Below are positions 35,907 through 48,926 of a stretch of DNA of 64,000 bases, piece after piece; position 1 is the stretch's first letter, and the number at the start of each line of letters is the position of its first letter. The stretch lies in the NCBI GenBank assembly GCA_944324865.1, contig CALUXW010000001.1:124001-188000 (forward strand). The letters run 5' to 3'. The stretch comes from Candidatus Gastranaerophilales bacterium (lineage in GTDB: Bacteria > Cyanobacteriota > Vampirovibrionia > Gastranaerophilales > Gastranaerophilaceae). The translations under genes were made by a program, and so were the position numbers. The notes beneath the pieces were generated by a model. It saw only the letters and a program-made list of their open reading frames with translations, searched no databases and was not told the origin of the DNA.

Positions 35907-37589
35907 TTACTGAACAATTCCACTGCTAAGATATTTGGAAATTTTACTGAAATCATAACTACCATCATTATTTTTTGAATTCAATAAAACTTTAATACAA
36001 AACAGTTCGGGGGTTTTTTTAAAGCAAACTTTTTTAATTATTCCCATTAATCTATCTTGATTGAAATTTTCAAATTCATCTCCAAGAAATGTTCTTATTG
36101 AATCTTGTAAGAGTTGTTTTTGGTTATAAATAAAATTATCACTAAGTATATCATTAAGCTCGTTTTTGCTTTTATCTATAAATAAAGAAGGGGTAAGTGA
36201 TTCCATTTGTTTATAAACGAAAAAAATCAATGAAGAATCTGCATCATTGTCGAGTTTTTTAATTAGTTTTGCTATCTTTTCACGTCTAGAGTTAACATAA
36301 CTGTTTATGCATTGCTCATATAGATTATCAAGTGCTGCATCGCGATTATGATGACCCAAGTCAGATGCTATGGCTGAATTGACTAGTTCAACTACAGATG
36401 CGATAGTATTTTTATCAGTTGCAGTATATATTGTAGAATGGGGTTTTAAATGTAGCGAATTTAGTTCATTCAGAAATGAAGCAACCACTTGGTTGTCTTT
36501 TACACAATCAAGCTCTGTATTTAAGTTAGCTCTTATATCATTAAAATACTTTACCGGATATGTCTTTTGATTATTACTCGGGTAAATATACCTTAGATAC
36601 TTTAATATGTTACGCAATACAACCGGATTTTCTGTGACAAACTTAGAAAATTTTGTTGATTCTCGTTTCGAATTACACCACACATGTGTAGCAAGATAAT
36701 TTGAAGGATTAGACTTTCCATTATCAGAATATGGCTTTACATGCTCAGCGCTTGATAAACAAGGTAATAAAAGTGTAGAGTAAAACAATATTGCTTCATC
36801 ATCAGCCATGGAAACAAATTGGTTATCGATTTTAGGATCTTTACGCAAAGCCTTAGAAATATATTTTACCAAATAAGCATCAGGGTCTGTTTTAGAAGAT
36901 GGCAATCGTGAAATAATTGATATTAAATTTGTTATTGAATCAATATTTTCTTTTTTTGAAAATTTGCCTACGATGTGCACTACATTGGATATTACACCTT
37001 TACGATATTCTACTTGAATTTTATTAATTAAAAAATTTGATAAATCTTCCATAGAAATATCAGGCTTAAGTATGACATCTTGCTCTTTTACTTTATTAAT
37101 ATAATCGGTAAGCTCTTGACAACCGATTTCAGATGCATATTCTAACACTTTATTATATATATCAAGCTGTTTGTGAATCATACGAGTTCTGGAAACAGTA
37201 TAAGCAATTGGTAAAATCTCTTTGCCATTCTTCTGAGGAAAAGACATTGCCAGCAATTCAAATGATTTAATAGCCTCTTTAGTATTTGAACTAAAAGCAG
37301 AAGGGTTTTGTGAGACAAATTTTTCTATCTCATTTACCAACTCAACTCCACGCAAAGTTGTAATTTTTTTTATATCTCCTCTTGTAAGCATTGGTTTGCC
37401 ACAATATGCACATGGCACACCTTTTATCTGTTTTAGTTTAAAATAATATCCAAAATTTATATCCAGTCCTGCATTATATTTATCATAATGGCAATTAGAG
37501 CCTACAATGGCATTTAAACTACTACAAGTGTTACTATAGGCACTATTGCCAACATAATAATTGTTCAAAATGACAGGCGATATCTTCAT
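35907..37589 (-). CDS. Unknown protein with split HNH-endonuclease-like motifs
   Basis: A 560-residue soluble protein starting MKISPVILNNYY, with INFG at about residues 46-49. A zinc-knuckle CAYCGKP occurs near residues 61-67. About 230 residues later comes SAEHVKPYSDNGKSNPSNYL followed by HVWCNSKRES, which reads like the second half of an HNH nuclease (EH..P.S..G..N.....CN.K). The long helical insert between the halves is not recognised, nor is the C-terminal 200 residues. DNA cleavage is therefore only a possibility. It ends 1 base after the convergent quinone reductase. Confidence 0.7.
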   Translation of the reverse strand: MKISPVILNNYYVGNSAYSNTCSSLNAIVGSNCHYDKYNAGLDINFGYYFKLKQIKGVPCAYCGKPMLTRGDIKKITTLRGVELVNEIEKFVSQNPSAFSSNTKEAIKSFELLAMSFPQKNGKEILPIAYTVSRTRMIHKQLDIYNKVLEYASEIGCQELTDYINKVKEQDVILKPDISMEDLSNFLINKIQVEYRKGVISNVVHIVGKFSKKENIDSITNLISIISRLPSSKTDPDAYLVKYISKALRKDPKIDNQFVSMADDEAILFYSTLLLPCLSSAEHVKPYSDNGKSNPSNYLATHVWCNSKRESTKFSKFVTENPVVLRNILKYLRYIYPSNNQKTYPVKYFNDIRANLNTELDCVKDNQVVASFLNELNSLHLKPHSTIYTATDKNTIASVVELVNSAIASDLGHHNRDAALDNLYEQCINSYVNSRREKIAKLIKKLDNDADSSLIFFVYKQMESLTPSLFIDKSKNELNDILSDNFIYNQKQLLQDSIRTFLGDEFENFNQDRLMGIIKKVCFKKTPELFCIKVLLNSKNNDGSYDFSKISKYLSSGIVQ

Positions 37590-38767: not shown

Positions 38768-39331
38768 ATGCGCATACAACCATCTACAAGTTTTAGTTAC
38801 AAAAATAATACATCATTTGGAATGGCAAAACTTACAACAAAAGGCCAAGAACTAGCAAAACAAGTCCTAAATGTTGATTTTATAGACTTTGCAAAACTCC
38901 AACAACCATACACAAAAAAGGGTATGTTGGAAGACCTTATAAGCAAAAGAGAACATGACCCGGACAAAATAAAAAAATTATTCAAATTTGCAACGACTGA
39001 ATTTGAAGATAAAAATGCGGAATTTATAAGGATGCAAATTTTACCCTTCAATACACGTAGAAAGATTAAACAATATCTTGCAAAAGACCATGCACAGTGT
39101 GCGGCAATGACAGGCTTCAATACAGATAAAAACCAATGTCTATGTCTCACAGAATTTGGTACTGCTATTGTCGAAAATTTACTTAATGTTTTTGATGTAA
39201 ATGTATCGAATAGATTGGTTTCTAAAAATGACGGGATTAAAATTCTCGACTTATTGAGAGACTACATTCCTGTAGATACGCTCCTTAAAAGAACGGGTAT
39301 ACTGACTGACAAAGCTTATACAAAAAGATAA
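38768..39331 (+). CDS. Unknown protein with N-terminal M-R-I...SFG motif
   Basis: No family recognised. 187 residues, basic, mostly helical, without signal peptide or membrane segment. It begins MRIQPSTSFSYKNNTSFG, a polar Ser/Asn/Thr-rich leader that ends in F-G at residues 17-18. Similar leaders occur in other unknown proteins of this window. The rest has a Cys-containing middle (QCAAMTGFNTDKNQCLCLTEFG). GAGAGG precedes the ATG. It is a single gene; a terminator at 39449 follows the 118-base AT-rich tail. Confidence 0.7.
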   Translation: MRIQPSTSFSYKNNTSFGMAKLTTKGQELAKQVLNVDFIDFAKLQQPYTKKGMLEDLISKREHDPDKIKKLFKFATTEFEDKNAEFIRMQILPFNTRRKIKQYLAKDHAQCAAMTGFNTDKNQCLCLTEFGTAIVENLLNVFDVNVSNRLVSKNDGIKILDLLRDYIPVDTLLKRTGILTDKAYTKR

Positions 39332-41852: not shown

Positions 41853-44654
41853 ATGATGGGACTATTTGATGGTATTAGTAGCTCACTTAAAAAAGTACAG
41901 CCTGCAGTCGATACAACAACAAACAAAACTCCAACAACATCGACCTCAAGTTCTGGCAGTTCAATTTTTCAAAACAGTAAGACTCAAATTGGTGATAAAC
42001 TCGAATTAAACACCAATACAGTCAAGGCAAATGACAGTGGAAACTATTATATTGAAGTGGATCAACAAAAAAATAGCACCTTACTTGATATTGTCGGTAA
42101 TGCCTACAATGGCTGGGAAGATTTAAATGACGATGAGAGAACCGCTTTGGTTGATATTGTTATGGATGCTAACCCGGAAATTTATGGTACATCAGTTAAT
42201 AATGTATCTGGTCAGTATGTAACCGACAGCGACAGAAATAGCACGGGTGCAAATGACGACTATAGAAGCAAAAGATTGAACACAATAATAAAAGAAGGCG
42301 ATAAAATAAATATCCCTACACTTGATCCTACAATCGACGAAGACAGTGTTAAGATATTAAATGCGGCTGAAACAAACAATGAAGGCGATGTAGAACATAT
42401 CCATGTAGGAACACTTATTGCTACTCCACATGACACACAAGAATTTGTTTATGAACCAGATGCTAAAGTTGCATTTTTGTCAGCTGAAGATGGAAGCGTA
42501 AATACACTGGCATCTGTTGTAGCAGCACATTTTGATACAGAAGCTGATCCACAGAAAGCCTACGCAATTGCACTCGATCAAGCTAAAGCAAACTCTGATT
42601 TAGTTCTAGAGAGAATTAATGAAAAAAATGGTACAAACTATGATGATGTTGCAACTATTCCGCAAGATGTATTGCTAAATACAAACATTTACAGTGAGAA
42701 AGAAAATGTACCAAATGAATTAGTGATGGTTGAATCAAGATACGAAGATTTTGCAAACAATTCAGACTTAACATCAGCAAGATATGTAGACAAAGAACTA
42801 TATACTGCAGAAATGTCAAATGTTACCATAGACCCCAATTACGAAGGTAAAAGCGGGGATGTCTCAGGTGACACTAAAATATATAAATCTGTTGAAGATG
42901 CAATATTAGACAACTATAAAACACAGGTAAGTAAAGAAAAAGTATTTGAACTTGGTGAACCAGAAACAACAACTACACTTAGCGATAATAATACACAAGA
43001 AGTCTATCATGACGGCACTGTTGTAATAAGAGACAGTCAAAGTGGCGAAATTATTTCTGCCGAAAAGCCGATACAAAAAAATACTGATGCATATGCAGTT
43101 ATAATGGATGGCTTAAAAGATAATGCAGCTAATTCTGCTATAGTATATGGTAAAAGCGGCCAAGATGCCCTAGATGCATTAAACAATATTTCTGAGGCAA
43201 CAACACTTAATTTACAACCGACGGAAATTCAAAGAATTGCTGTAGGATGTGATGAAGAAACCGCAAAATTGGCCTTTGCCGAAGGTTCAGATACTGTATT
43301 TTCATACTTACATTCATCAGTTGATGAAGTAGACATGAATGAACTTGATGAAAACGGCAATTATAAGTATACGTCAGTTATGGATTTAATGCAGTTTTAT
43401 GCAGACCCAAGCGACGAATCAGCGCAAAACGGCAAAACATTACTTGATAGATACAACGAAAATCCTGACGACCCCGAAACACAAGCATTAATAGGAGCAG
43501 CTGTACAAAATATAATCTCAAATAATGACTTTTTTAAAAATTCTACATTCGAAGTAAACGGCGAAGAAGTTGCTGGCAAAGATTTAACAGTACAACAAGC
43601 TCTTTATCTTGATTTAATAAATGATGAAGGAAAACCTGTAGTCAGCACACTAACCCTTGGTGATGCAGCATATAATATAACAAGTCCGCCTGAAGAGGCT
43701 GATAAAGACTACGGATGCTGTACTCCATCTGTCAGCGAACCTCAAATACCTGATGGCGACGGAGAATCGGAGCCTGTTATTGAACCTGACACAGATTCAG
43801 ATACAGATGTTGATGTGGATATTGACACAGATACAGACGTCGATACCGATACTGATGTGGATACAGATATTGATGTAGATACCGATGCTGATGTGGACAC
43901 AGATGTTGATGTTGATACAGACATAGACACTGATACTGATACAGATACTGATGTAGATACTGATACTGATACCGATGTAGATGTAGATACAGACACAGAT
44001 GTTGATACAGACATAGACACTGATACTGATACAGATACTGATGTAGATACTGATACTGATACCGATGTAGATGTAGATACAGACACAGATGTTGATACAG
44101 ACATAGACACTGATACTGATACAGATACTGATGTAGATACTGATACAGATATAGACACCGATACAGACGTTGATGTTGATACGGATGCCGACATAGATAC
44201 AGACACTGATACCGACGTAGATACAGACACAGATGTTGATGTTGATACAGATACAGACACAGACAACGGACCAACAACAGAACCTGGACCTCCAACATAT
44301 CCGTCACTTGACCCAGAGTTTCCAGAACTAGGAGATAATGATGACGATGTAGATGCAGACAATGATGCTGATGCTGATAGTGACATTGACAATGACAACG
44401 ACAATGTAACCAAACCAGGTGACTCCTCTGACTCAGAAAGCGACAGTGAATCAGAAGGTGACAAAACTCAAGATTCGACAAAACCATCAAATCCGAGCAC
44501 AGGTAGCGGTGACAACTCCGAAAACGACTCATCTTGTGCACCAACACCAGATGTAGATTCACCAACAGATGGCTTTGGTAACCAAACAATAAGACCAAAT
44601 AATTCATCGCTACTTAATTTAGACCTGGATGATATCGATGATATCTTTAACTAA
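41853..44654 (+). CDS. Large acidic Asp-Thr repeat protein, paralog 1
   Basis: A 933-residue, very acidic protein without signal peptide (start ATGATG after AGGAG; the second ATG at 41856 is equally possible). Residues about 50-150 look like a divergent LysM unit ([20 protein letters not shown]...[10 protein letters not shown]...[10 protein letters not shown]). Residues 182-630 share a core with the next gene ([59 protein letters not shown]). Residues 644-805 are Asp-Thr/Asp-Val/Asp-Ile dipeptide repeats, then a [16 protein letters not shown] spacer, a Ser/Asp/Glu tail and the terminal [10 protein letters not shown] infer a calcium-binding cell-surface or secreted protein. Confidence 0.85.
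43921..44145 (+). repeat. Exact 90-bp tandem repeats in the Asp-Thr tract, paralog 1
   Basis: Units 43921-44010 and 44011-44100 are identical, and a third copy continues from 44101 for about 45 bases before diverging. Third-position codon choices are the same in each copy, which points to recent duplication. Each unit codes for 30 residues of Asp-Thr/Val/Ile. Confidence 0.9.
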
Positions 44655-44666
44655 AGTCGCACATTA

Positions 44667-44709
44667 ATATTAATAAAGCGGTACTATAACAGTACCGCTT
44701 TATTAATAT
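44667..44709. terminator. Terminator hairpin after paralog 1
   Basis: A 19-bp perfect stem with core AAAGCGGTACT/AGTACCGCTTT, extended on both sides by A-T pairs, and loop ATAAC. The T-rich right arm can end transcription of the 41853-44654 gene. Confidence 0.85.
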
Positions 44710-44811
44710 GTAAATTTATGTAAATATTTTAAAAAATTTTGATATTTAGGCAAATTTTTTTTTCACGTGTTTTATAAAATTGTATATTTTTATAAAAATT
44801 CAGGAGATAAC

Positions 44812-47754
44812 ATGTCCGAAATCAAAATTATACCATTTCAAACCAAGACAAATCAAAATAATGCAATGTCAACTACTGTATCTAATCCAATCAGCAATAG
44901 TACATATAATGCAGATTTTCTTTCGTTTGGTTCAAGCGAAAATAAGAAAAAACGTACAAATTTTGTCAACAAATTTAAAGCTATATTTGGTGCAACATTA
45001 ATCGCGCTTGGAACAACTGCTTGCCAAAAAGGAGCTGATAAAATAAATTCAGCTACAGACAATACAAGCAGCTCAATAAACTATGAAGAAGAAGTGTCTA
45101 CTCCTGAGTCAAGCACATTTGATGACTATTATACTGAGCAATCCAAAGATAATTATTATGAAACTAATAACAGCAACGATAATTATAACAATACAGATGA
45201 ACAAAGCGAATCTTATAATTTAGAGGATCATATACATGCCGCAACTGTTATTACTACCCCACATGAAACAGTCCGATATGTCTATGTTCCAAGGGGTGGC
45301 AATAATGAAGGCGGAGTCAATGTAGACGTAAAGCTTTCCTCTGATGATACACTTGCAAATATAATACAAGAATATTTCGGGGGAATAAACGATGACAACA
45401 TATACCCAATCGCACTTGATCAAGCAAAAGCAAATGCGCAAGTAATACTTGATGCAGTTAATGATAGTAGTGAAGAACACTTTGAAGATGTTGCAGATAT
45501 TCCTGCTGATAAACTTTTAAATACAAAATTAAACCCTGATAGCAAAGATTTATTAATTGAACTCGTGAACTCTTCACATGAAGATTTCTCAGATGAAAAC
45601 AGTGATGAAATATCTATGACAACTTTTGTTGACCAGGAAAGATTTAGTTCGGATAACGAATATGTAATAATAGATCCATCTTGGGACGGAAAAACATCCA
45701 ACGCTGATGGTTATCCAACATATAATAACATCTCTGAAGCTATATTAAATAATTATAGAAGTAATAACGCAGAAAAAGATGGCAAACTTGTTGAATCAAT
45801 ATGGACAGATTCATATTCTGATATCGTTGATGGAATAAGGGACGATGCACTAAATTCAGATATTTTTAAAGGTATGTCTAGAGATGATGTCTTTGAATAT
45901 ATTAATAACACCAACTTTACAGATAAAATTATTATACGCCTTGGTGATGTTGAAGCACAAAGAATAGCTCTTGGTTGCGATGAACACGGTGCAAGAGAAA
46001 ATATCACAAATGGTAGCGATTATAAATTTTCTTACTTACAATCAACTGTCAAAGATGTAGACTTAACAGAAAAAGTTGATAACGAATATAAATACCAAAA
46101 AATGTTGGATTTGATGCAGTTCTATAAATCGCCAACAGATGCTTACGAAGGTAATGGCAAAACATTGCTTGACAGATATTTAGAAAATCCAAATGATGAA
46201 GAAAATAATGCATTAATCTTAGTTGCAATAAAAGATATAATTCAAAATGATGATTATTTCAAGACTGCAGAATTTAATATTGACGGCAAAATAGTAAGTG
46301 GCGACGAGCTTACACCTCAACAAGCAATGGACATAGAGCTAATTAAAAATGATAAACCAATTACAAATAATGTCAAACTTGCTGATGCTGCATACAATAT
46401 TTTGGGTGGAACAGATGGTAGTGATGGTGAAGAAGTAATATATATAAATGCACCTGACCTACAAAATATACAAGATGATATAACACCTCCTGATGTTGAT
46501 ACAGATTCTGACTCAGATACGGATATCGATATTGACACCGATACCGATACAGACGTAGATGTTGATACAGATACCGACATAGATACAGATACAGACACAG
46601 ACACAGATACCGATACGGATACTGACATAGACACAGACACAGACACGGATACCGATACAGATACCGACATAGATACAGATACTGATACAGATGTAGATAC
46701 CGATGTGGACACTGATACAGATACCGACGTAGACACTGATACGGATACTGACACCGACGTAGATACCGATGTGGATACAGATACAGATACTGACGTAGAC
46801 ACTGATACGGATACTGACACTGATACCGATGTGGATACCGATACAGACACAGACACCGACGTAGATACAGATACTGATACAGATACCGATGTAGATACAG
46901 ATACAGACACCGATGTGGATACAGATACTGATGTAGACACAGATACAGATACCGACGTAGATACAGACACTGATACCGATGTGGATACAGATACAGATAC
47001 AGATACTGACATAGACACAGACACGGATACCGATACAGATACTGATGTAGACACTGACACAGATGATGATGTTGTTGAACCAGATCCACCGGATTACCCA
47101 TCGTTAGATACTGACACTGATACAGATACCGATGTGGATACAGATACAGATACAGACACCGATGTGGATACAGATACTGATGTAGACACTGATACGGATA
47201 CTGACACCGACGTAGATACAGACACTGATACGGATACTGACACTGATACCGATGTGGATACCGATACAGATACTGATGTAGACACTGATACGGATACCGA
47301 TGTGGATACAGATACAGATACTGATGTAGACACTGATACGGATACTGACACTGATACCGATGTGGATACAGATACAGATACTGATGTAGACACTGATACG
47401 GATACTGACACTGATACCGATGTGGATACAGATACGGATACTGACACAGACACAGATACTGATGTAGATACTGATACCGATGTAGACACTGACACGGATA
47501 CAGACACCGACGTAGATACAGACACTGATACCGATGTGGATACAGATACCGATACAGATACGGATGACGACTGCGCAAGTAGCCCTTCAGTAGACAGCCC
47601 GGATGACATATACGGTGATTCAACTATCGTAACAAGAAATCAAACAGAATCATTAGACAATAACACGCAAAATCAAGTCGAAGATGATTTCTTAAATGAC
47701 ATTTTATCAATTGACGAAATAGATGATATGGATGATATATTCCAAAATTCATAA
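44812..47754 (+). CDS. Large acidic Asp-Thr repeat protein, paralog 2
   Basis: A 980-residue paralog of the preceding gene. The ATG at 44812 follows AGGAG. The N-terminus has a polar leader ending in FLSFG (residues 36-40), a Lys-rich stretch and a hydrophobic segment ending in a Cys (AIFGATLIALGTTAC), like an internal anchor or lipobox but without the usual -3 residue. Residues 140-550 match paralog 1 ([69 protein letters not shown]). Residues 561-919 are Asp-Thr repeats, split by VEPDPPDYPSLD. The end reads IDDMDDIFQNS. About 15 kDa of extra repeat sets it apart. Function unknown. Confidence 0.85.
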   Translation: MSEIKIIPFQTKTNQNNAMSTTVSNPISNSTYNADFLSFGSSENKKKRTNFVNKFKAIFGATLIALGTTACQKGADKINSATDNTSSSINYEEEVSTPESSTFDDYYTEQSKDNYYETNNSNDNYNNTDEQSESYNLEDHIHAATVITTPHETVRYVYVPRGGNNEGGVNVDVKLSSDDTLANIIQEYFGGINDDNIYPIALDQAKANAQVILDAVNDSSEEHFEDVADIPADKLLNTKLNPDSKDLLIELVNSSHEDFSDENSDEISMTTFVDQERFSSDNEYVIIDPSWDGKTSNADGYPTYNNISEAILNNYRSNNAEKDGKLVESIWTDSYSDIVDGIRDDALNSDIFKGMSRDDVFEYINNTNFTDKIIIRLGDVEAQRIALGCDEHGARENITNGSDYKFSYLQSTVKDVDLTEKVDNEYKYQKMLDLMQFYKSPTDAYEGNGKTLLDRYLENPNDEENNALILVAIKDIIQNDDYFKTAEFNIDGKIVSGDELTPQQAMDIELIKNDKPITNNVKLADAAYNILGGTDGSDGEEVIYINAPDLQNIQDDITPPDVDTDSDSDTDIDIDTDTDTDVDVDTDTDIDTDTDTDTDTDTDTDIDTDTDTDTDTDTDIDTDTDTDVDTDVDTDTDTDVDTDTDTDTDVDTDVDTDTDTDVDTDTDTDTDTDVDTDTDTDTDVDTDTDTDTDVDTDTDTDVDTDTDVDTDTDTDVDTDTDTDVDTDTDTDTDIDTDTDTDTDTDVDTDTDDDVVEPDPPDYPSLDTDTDTDTDVDTDTDTDTDVDTDTDVDTDTDTDTDVDTDTDTDTDTDTDVDTDTDTDVDTDTDTDVDTDTDTDVDTDTDTDTDTDVDTDTDTDVDTDTDTDTDTDVDTDTDTDTDTDTDVDTDTDVDTDTDTDTDVDTDTDTDVDTDTDTDTDDDCASSPSVDSPDDIYGDSTIVTRNQTESLDNNTQNQVEDDFLNDILSIDEIDDMDDIFQNS
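46496..47570 (+). repeat. Asp-Thr-coding degenerate hexamer repeat, paralog 2
   Basis: About 1.07 kb of GAY-ACN codon pairs, with GTN or ATA in place of ACN about every third to sixth pair. Third positions vary freely while the amino acids do not. Several 60-base blocks repeat exactly, for example 47341-47400 against the start of 47401-47460. A short unique spacer lies at about 47065-47103. Confidence 0.9.
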
Positions 47755-47765
47755 GTTAGAATAAT

Positions 47766-47799
47766 ATTATAAAAGGTGGTCAAAGCCACCTTTTATAAT
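47766..47799. terminator. Bidirectional terminator between paralog 2 and mnmA
   Basis: A 14-bp perfect stem ATTATAAAAGGTGG/CCACCTTTTATAAT with loop TCAAAG. The right arm contains the mnmA stop codon (47793-47795). Confidence 0.85.
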
Positions 47800-48860
47800 G
47801 CAGCTTTAATTATACCACCACCTAAAACTAAATCGTCATCATAAAATACAACTGCCTGTCCTGGGGCTACGGAACTTTGTGGACTATTGAATAATACTCT
47901 GGCATTGTTCAGATTATCAATGCTTACACTGCAATCAAATGGAGTTTGTGATGATCTGATTTTAGCTTTTGCAAAAAAACTTTTTTTTGGACCATCCCAA
48001 AATACCCAACTTAAATTGTCGGCAATGAGCCCGCTTGAATAAGTATCGTCTTTTGTTGACACAATCAATCTATTACTGTCTTTATCAAATCCAATTACAT
48101 ATAATGCTTCACTATATGACACTAAAATTCCTTTTCTTTGACCAATCGTATAATTGTGCAATCCGCTATGATAACCTAAAATATTACCAAATTTATCAAC
48201 AATTTCGCCTTTAGCCGAATTACAGTCGAGCAAGTCAGAATATGAACCTGAGTAAAAATCCTGACTATCTCTTTTATTGGCAACGGATATATTGTGTCTA
48301 AATGCATAGTTTCTTACCTCATCCTTATGCATTTTACCAAGAGGAAATAATACATTTTTTAAGGTATCTTGACTTAAAGCATAAAGAAAATAAGATTGGT
48401 CTTTTTTTGTATCAATAGCCCTTTTTAATTGGAATTTACCTATTTTGGAGTTATATTCATTTATTACATAATGCCCGGTTGCAAATTTATCAAAATTTAT
48501 ACCATTCATTTTTGCCTTAGAGGGAAATGCATTGAATTTTATCAAGGGATTACATAATACGCAAGGATTTGGTGTACGTGCATTTAAATATTCATTTTTA
48601 AATACGTTAAAAACATAACTATGAAACTCTGGGGAAACATCAATTAAAGTAAAATCACAGCCGATCCTCTCGCAGTTTTGTTTTGCATCATTAATTTCTT
48701 GAGTCTTATCTGTGGCATAACAAGAATTACCTGCCTGTAAAAACTTATCGCCTGAATAAATTTGCATCATTGCAGCATGCACAGTATTACCTTGTGACAT
48801 TAATATATGTGCAGCAACAGCAGAATCTACTCCGCCTGAAACTCCCACTAAAATTTCCAT
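47793..48860 (-). CDS. mnmA: tRNA 2-thiouridine(34) synthase
   Basis: Thiolates the wobble uridine of tRNA-Lys, -Glu and -Gln. 355 residues from the ATG at 48860, which fits the family start MEILVGVSGGVDSAVAA with the PP-loop SGGVDS at 8-13. The catalytic nucleophile is C103 in TPNPCVLCN, and an extra C100 gives a CxxC pair. The second catalytic Cys of the E. coli enzyme (C199, in ICFIG) has no counterpart: here the sequence is SQDFYSGSY (199-207). This may mean a different sulfur-transfer or Fe-S mechanism. The TTG/GTG starts upstream lack a ribosome site. Confidence 0.9.
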   Translation of the reverse strand: MEILVGVSGGVDSAVAAHILMSQGNTVHAAMMQIYSGDKFLQAGNSCYATDKTQEINDAKQNCERIGCDFTLIDVSPEFHSYVFNVFKNEYLNARTPNPCVLCNPLIKFNAFPSKAKMNGINFDKFATGHYVINEYNSKIGKFQLKRAIDTKKDQSYFLYALSQDTLKNVLFPLGKMHKDEVRNYAFRHNISVANKRDSQDFYSGSYSDLLDCNSAKGEIVDKFGNILGYHSGLHNYTIGQRKGILVSYSEALYVIGFDKDSNRLIVSTKDDTYSSGLIADNLSWVFWDGPKKSFFAKAKIRSSQTPFDCSVSIDNLNNARVLFNSPQSSVAPGQAVVFYDDDLVLGGGIIKAAL

Positions 48861-48926
48861 AAGAGTAATTTTAACATAAATAAACACTTGTTTGACAGTA
48901 AAATTTAATTTTTGTAAAATTATAAA

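Follow-up and report, generated by a model that had tools for sequence, protein, structure and literature searches.

A tandem pair of Asp-Thr repeat proteins in a gut Gastranaerophilales bacterium and their relatives with a kept core and swapped stalks

Two neighbouring genes in the window, that is, the whole 64,000-nucleotide stretch of Candidatus Gastranaerophilales DNA analysed here, encode large proteins with long tracts of Asp-Thr, Asp-Val and Asp-Ile dipeptides, and the question raised by this locus is what kind of proteins these are, where in the cell they would lie and what the tract would do for them. A preliminary description had reported tandem paralogs of 933 and 980 residues that share a core, an Asp-Thr/Val/Ile tract, a PPxYPSLD spacer and an acidic tail; both open reading frames were found at the positions claimed, and all four parts were present in each. 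The first protein, P1 (41853-44654, plus strand, 933 residues), has no earlier start codon available in its ORF, and the second, P2 (44812-47754, plus strand, 980 residues), has an alternative GTG start at 44767 that would give 995 residues. All parts named below are on the plus strand. The P1 core, delimited by alignment and model, covers residues 182-609 (428 residues; 42396-43679) and is followed by the stalk at residues 646-803 (43788-44261) and by the spacer, here PPTYPSLD, with the acidic tail (44265-44651), which carries C-x3-P-x-V at residue 895 (44535) before the C-terminal tip. The P2 core, delimited in the same way, spans residues 140-530 (391 residues; 45229-46401), and its stalk consists of two tracts, residues 561-754 (46492-47073) and 766-919 (47107-47568), separated by a spacer with PPDYPSLD (47074-47106); the tail (47569-47751) has C-x3-P-x-V at residue 921 (47572). 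In a 19-sequence alignment, the two cores were 41% identical.

The pair is flanked by a gene for an FAD-dependent oxidoreductase (PF12831, 40491-41750) on the P1 side and by mnmA (47793-48887), which is on the opposite strand and convergent with P2, on the other. Of the 13 genus regions examined, 12 have the oxidoreductase adjoining P1 (in G006 it adjoins P2), and the remaining region, L026, starts within a P1 stalk. A 19-pair hairpin with no T-run was found between P1 and P2 (44667-44709, plus strand; -25.0 kcal/mol, z -6.18) and was not detected by the terminator scan; a terminator-like hairpin between P2 and mnmA (47765-47800) was found by hairpin analysis and, on the minus strand, by the same scan. 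The two genes may be transcribed separately. No glycosyltransferase was seen when the window's ORF list was inspected by eye. A protein of 180-200 residues (SFGMAKLT..., 38768-39331) accompanies the locus in most genus regions examined and had no Pfam match up to E 0.01. Moreover, a short N-terminal motif, [ISVTNL][STNAC]F[GTSK], of which SFG is an example, recurs among unrelated proteins (sites at 44812-44970, 38768-39331 and 35907-37589, and in L023 14092-14883 and L054 6449). Its density per 1000 residues was 5.6 in residues 1-20, 3.3 in 21-40, 2.8 in 41-60 and 0.8-1.2 beyond, in a set of 107 proteins that retains some redundancy as well as some spurious ORFs; it is possibly a lineage-specific N-terminal tag.

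The core had been proposed to be new, and this was borne out, as neither an intracellular family nor any other described family was matched: a Pfam search of P1 and P2 up to E 1 returned no family, and Foldseek searches with the P1 and P2 core models gave no hit at E <= 0.001 in the PDB, a Foldseek search of BFVD being equally empty at that threshold. The orthologs showed stray weak Pfam matches to assorted families only. These models were obtained with AlphaFold2 and had a pLDDT of 77.3 and a pTM of 0.67 for P1 residues 1-609, and of 84.5 and 0.80 for the P2 core. VIA-align of P1 gave a best Z of 6.3 over 43 residues (rmsd 1.9), with rows mainly on residues 361-407; these matches were set aside because they correspond to a beta-meander insert that resembles one blade of many propellers, a common arrangement. 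This insert occupies core residues 372-406 of P1 (42966-43070) and is missing from P2. The beta-meander (Y-x-D/N-G-x-x-V ... D-x-x-T/S-G-E) differs in core position among P1 proteins, as observed in the window's own and in those of G001, G008 and G013, and is apparently a movable insert resembling one propeller blade. The core profile matched SepL weakly (E 0.0074), over a short stretch and with no counterpart in the fold searches, and NCBIfam NCS1 gave a stray weak match (E 0.021) to the N-terminus of P2; both were rejected.

A lead, still unproven, is that P1 residues 60-156 (42030-42320) form a divergent LysM-like module with a long insert. This N-domain resembles LysM (PF01476) in its block pattern, (G)DT/NS-L..I, ANP and (A)GDKINIP, and differs from it by an insert of about 45 residues and a Pfam score under the cut-off. 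Its hhalign comparison with LysM was weak (P 0.0025 over 30 columns, probability 11.8%), as were those of the core (0.024) and of the distant cores (0.26). In a three-block LysM test, the G001 ortholog reached z 10.3 over shuffles and the other 11 z 1.5 to 3.9, the scores of G012, G013 and G014 not surpassing their best shuffle, and 20 core rows gave z -0.9 to 5.1. Once the insert was removed, Pfam LysM scored 15.5 bits (E 0.017) on G001 and 13.0 on G002, under the cut-off of 20.9, and did not match the window's P1 domain; Pfam aRib and Phage_tail_X were also under their cut-offs on insert-free P1 domains and were dropped. The VIA alignment of the P2 core to a LysM module gave Z 2.7 over 51 residues, with an rmsd of 2.7 (16 chains re-aligned). 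We treat LysM-like modules in the P1 N-domain and in the core as a lead.

Relatives of the pair found in the database were gut Gastranaerophilales MAGs, one being Candidatus Galligastranaerophilus intestinavium, and the pair's own genome (1.79 Mb, 63 contigs) had no third core copy at E <= 1. Of 58 genomes put to a single-sequence search, 13 had the core, and these, the own genome among them, all belong to the window's genus; a core profile detected it in 14 of 383 family genomes, namely 13 of the 15 genus members and G016 from genus g3. G009 was negative for the core, yet it has a P2 tail at a contig start; G006 has P2 and no P1; and in G003 neither the pair nor its two neighbours were found, so the absence may be an assembly gap. 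The full-length homologs of genus g3, in G016 and G078, lie in a different gene neighbourhood. In G078 (L054 6449-10569), a tandem pair was again observed, its two members having the same N-terminal half and different stalks and tails, as if from recent duplication or gene conversion. A G101 protein matched that of G016 in the repeat only (query 493-547) and was dropped as a different protein. When genus g3 was included in the profile, weak N-terminal matches appeared in 7 further genomes (E 1.7e-6 to 2.2e-4); six of these proteins share the layout with other stalks, and that of G100 has no stalk. In single comparisons, the core-only profile set against a profile of five of these six distant homologs gave E 2.3e-9, and one with the N-terminus set against three of them gave E 4.2e-11.

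When a joint profile was run against the 383 Gastranaerophilaceae genomes, 83 of them gave a match, and these fall into 8 of the 41 genera. Only the first 135 of the 506 model positions, the N-terminal anchor region, were matched in G352, G206, G290, G301, G318, G177, G135 and G146, and by our own count 75 genomes in 6 genera are left without these eight; partial matches among the 75 are those of G063 (positions 6-171 only) and G195 (402-505 only). All 11 genomes that matched the g3-inclusive profile in a 386-genome sample of the phylum were Gastranaerophilaceae. Judged by these sequence comparisons, P1 and P2 belong to a family that is unnamed and confined to this lineage; most of its members have a predicted membrane anchor, and across species the core is kept and the stalk is swapped. 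In the tree, P2 proteins formed one clade (100/100), P1 proteins did not fall on one side of a branch, and three outgroup rows were very long. A phage origin was rejected: the P2 core had no match in 50,697 phage records, nor was any relative confirmed in viral_contigs by a pattern-led scan that used the core alignment.

The D-x tracts measure 158 residues in P1 and 194 plus 154 residues in P2, and each D is followed by T, V or I or, seldom, by A, S or D. The longest run of D alternating with another residue was 160 residues in P1 and 190 in P2, against a maximum of 16 in shuffled sequences (2000 per protein). The DT dipeptide is encoded by 7-8 different hexamers, and the nucleotide differences between successive units fell mostly at codon position 3 (81, 111 and 95), positions 1 and 2 having 31-43 apiece; this variety of hexamers, together with the third-position differences, shows that the dipeptide pattern is kept at the protein level. 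Codon use in the tracts was close to that of eight neighbouring genes. In P1, a 90-bp unit present in 3 copies with 95% matches shows a recent DNA expansion. Fully stretched, at 0.34 nm per residue, the 348 residues of the P2 tracts could reach about 118 nm.

Most members of the genus have DT/DV/DI stalks. Other kinds were also found: the G005 P1 stalk is PDTEPDTTPVP, G010 P1 has an EP stalk, as does G007 P1 so far as it is visible, the visible part of the G012 P1 stalk is EEP-type, and the short part of the G014 P2 stalk present on its contig is PTQAPVVTPTPIPQ. Outside the genus, stalks were of the TEPTKP, TPTA, PTQA, SE (G250, G217), EPSI (G112) and DDDSDI (G144) types. On this evidence, stalk chemistry is variable among relatives that by sequence have the same core, and neither Asp nor Thr is required. 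The tract had been suggested to bind calcium and to carry O-linked sugars on Thr; since relatives with the same core have other repeats in its place, some without Asp or with little Thr, neither property can be the shared function of the family, and the suggestion is not supported for proteins of this kind in general. Within the window's genus, the DT tract may bind calcium or be glycosylated. In genus g43, DT-rich stalks were observed in G180 and G123 and a DDDSDI-type stalk in G144 (L133 2281-5704; L195; L198), and we suggest that Asp-rich stalks arose or persisted beyond the window's genus. Many of these MAGs have their stalks at contig ends. The frame is lost within the stalk of G005 P2 and G010 P2 (L026 3240-3760; L030 11850-12289), the conserved tail of the former resuming in another frame, and this could be slippage, as in slippage-based switching, or assembly error; the single in-frame TGA of G011 P1 could likewise be an assembly error or slippage.

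Both proteins had been described as lacking a signal peptide. This fits P1, as a hydrophobic anchor segment was found in none of 12 P1 proteins, which share across the genus the start MG(L/F)xDG(I/V)S, and it fails for P2. Residues 55-71 of P2 (44974-45024) form a hydrophobic segment whose last residue is Cys71, in a lipobox-like setting; the segment follows a positive stretch and is preceded by an N-extension of about 50 residues with SFG and KKK. The eight aligned P2 orthologs all show a basic (net positive) stretch, a hydrophobic segment and then an invariant Cys, as bacterial lipoproteins do. Unlike typical lipoproteins, they have the long N-region with SFG, and the strict lipobox, [LVI][ASTVI][GAS]C, fits five of the eight by our own reading, the window's P2 having Thr at -3. 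P2 is thus predicted to carry an export signal of lipoprotein-like type, and Cys71 is probably lipidated. Among 40 homologs from outside the genus, picked from the joint-profile matches, an N-terminal hydrophobic segment was present in 39, with a Cys near its end in 20; the lone protein without it, that of G300, matches the profile from model position 142 only. Of the reading proposed in the preliminary description, the stalk layout is supported, and the N-terminal segment argues for an extracytoplasmic P2; P1 has no such segment. A loop of the pattern D.[DN].[DE].[ILVA]GD, similar to those usual in extracellular calcium sites, was found in 10 of 12 P1 proteins, the window's own and that of G001 being the two without it, and would favour an outside location for P1.

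The tail has a conserved element of its own. C-x(2,3)-P-x-[VIL] was present in 25 of the 42 stalk-plus-tail regions that reach the C-terminus, against 4.3 expected by shuffling, an excess that is partly post hoc because the pattern was defined after the tails were read; a Cys was present in 41 of the 42. This count left out tails cut by contig ends, the two P2 proteins with a lost frame (G005 and G010) and G004 P2, of which the contig has the last 70 residues only. The motif, which we call Cys-Pro-Val, occurs in three of the five genera included in the tail count (own count: g1, the window's genus, 13/13, g3 3/3, g38 9/15, g57 0/10, g43 0/1). The 10 proteins of g57, read by eye, end in an L-T-S-like amphipathic stretch and then usually in basic residues. 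Of the 13 genus tails, 12 have DDIF among their last seven residues, the exception being G001 P1, and among the tails examined DDIF is confined to the window's genus. A search of the 15 genus genomes for unrelated proteins with such a tip, made with a DNA pattern for DDIF ends that proved noisy, gave 108 rows by our own count versus 69 for the reversed control; the own genome gave 10 rows, and with TAA/TAG the P1 and P2 ends alone fitted, the frame being judged by reading, plus one DDIF-TGA. We infer that C-x3-P-x-V and the DDIF tip would be a docking or cross-linking site.

No literature on the P1/P2 family, or on such surface proteins in gut Melainabacteria, was found among the open-access papers searched; a passage of PMC9388160 on outer membrane-cell wall connectors names Melainabacteria among their holders. 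Like the staphylococcal Sdr/Clf (MSCRAMM) proteins, P1 and P2 have a folded region that bears a long, acidic stalk of dipeptide repeats, and they might be Sdr-like surface adhesins that attach to the host or in a biofilm, the core being a ligand-binding head and DT a stalk that binds calcium and may be O-glycosylated. The gut lineage of the host agrees with this, as do the recurrence of DT-rich stalks in genus g43 (G180, G123) and the matches of NCBIfam MSCRAMM models to the tract. However, the best of these was 131.6 bits against a cut-off of 2500 (SdrD), on or around the tract, and other MSCRAMM models gave 114-122 bits on P2 against cut-offs of 999-1700, and the likeness drawn in the preliminary description lies in the low-complexity tract. 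Moreover, P1 and P2 differ from Sdr/Clf in having no MSCRAMM core, Thr/Val/Ile for Ser, and a stalk that relatives with the same core replace by ones without Asp or with little Thr. A C-terminal LPxTG sorting signal is absent, as had been noted, from both full tails, which end in DDIDDIFN (P1) and DDIFQNS (P2); the anchor of the family is instead at the N-terminus, so that what the stalk holds out is the tail rather than the core. We consider such adhesins unlikely. Stalks of variable length and repetitive sequence that project a functional end are also a feature of periscope proteins, and in the portion of PMC9704523 that defines these, the stalks are arrays of folded tandem domains; such domains are highly identical, whereas the repeated unit of P1 and P2 is a dipeptide or a short low-complexity motif.

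Another reading places the proteins in the periplasm as tethers, with the N-terminus in one membrane, the core on peptidoglycan and the stalk spanning to the other membrane or a partner, its length setting the spacing. The EP-rich stalks recall that of TonB, the LysM-like hints would suit a core on peptidoglycan, and the amphipathic, often basic ends of the g57 proteins point the same way. The class has genes indicating a diderm cell wall, according to the part of PMC4040986 on this subject. Against this, stalks of 348 residues in P2, and of more elsewhere, seem far beyond the need of a periplasm, and no outer-membrane signal or partner was identified; the tether is a possibility that we regard as doubtful. 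It could also be that only P2 is exported and that P1 is cytoplasmic. SSB and FtsZ combine a conserved core, a hypervariable disordered linker and a short conserved acidic C-terminal tip, and P1 and P2 share this arrangement with them; a cytoplasmic P1 would use the tip to dock a partner. P1 has no signal and an ORF that is not extendable upstream, and its DDIF tip is conserved after a variable linker. The pair differs from SSB and FtsZ in that P2 is predicted to be exported, the core is unrelated, and the tip consists, in 12 of 13 tails, of DDIF with at most three residues after it. Against a cytoplasmic P1, the tip and C-x3-P-x-V are common to P1 and P2, which suggests one compartment, and the calcium-site-like loop of most P1 proteins (again, not the window's own) and the LysM-like module point the same way; we find this reading improbable.

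We lean, with moderate confidence, towards P1 and P2 being the genus version of a Gastranaerophilaceae kind of protein that is anchored in the envelope and holds out a short tip on a disordered stalk of exchangeable sequence. The layout would be an N-terminal membrane or lipid anchor, a folded core of about 390 residues and then a long, disordered stalk that ends in a short tip, which is conserved. The hydrophobic segment of P2 would export the chain and Cys71 would probably be lipidated, which would leave the core at the membrane, outside the cytoplasm; there the core and the P1 N-domain, LysM-like in places, may weakly be supposed to touch peptidoglycan. The stalk would act as a spacer whose chief need is to stay extended and soluble, and for this reason repeats such as E-P, P-T and S-E could take the place of D-T. 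It would hold C-x3-P-x-V and the genus DDIF tip away from the anchor, where they may meet a partner or cross-link through the Cys. P1 would be an anchorless paralog with an extra LysM-like module in front, probably working beside P2. The lack of an anchor in all 12 P1 proteins, and of a segment-end Cys in half of the outside homologs, counts against this envelope-anchored model. So do the imperfect lipobox of the window's P2 and of two other orthologs, the absence of C-x(2,3)-P-x-[VIL] from the g57 and g43 tails and its post hoc definition, the restriction of DDIF to one genus, and LysM scores that stay under the Pfam cut-off.

Taken further, the family might constitute an unnamed, family-wide envelope system of gut Melainabacteria, with an anchored core, almost any extended stalk, a fixed Cys-Pro-Val motif and a genus-specific tip, a proposal that we offer tentatively and hold to be rather less probable than its opposite. 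Were the Cys to connect stalks with one another or with a partner, the result would be a cross-linked surface or periplasmic mesh of interchangeable low-complexity polymers, and such a mesh, if true, would be a natural experiment on what a stalk requires. Gut Melainabacteria are known mostly through metagenomes, and a set of large envelope proteins is named here for one of their families. One core tolerates the complete replacement of stalk chemistry, and this would separate the duty of the stalk, that is, reach, solubility and presentation of the tip, from readings based on composition, such as calcium binding and glycosylation, with the short tail motif serving as a handle for seeking the partner.
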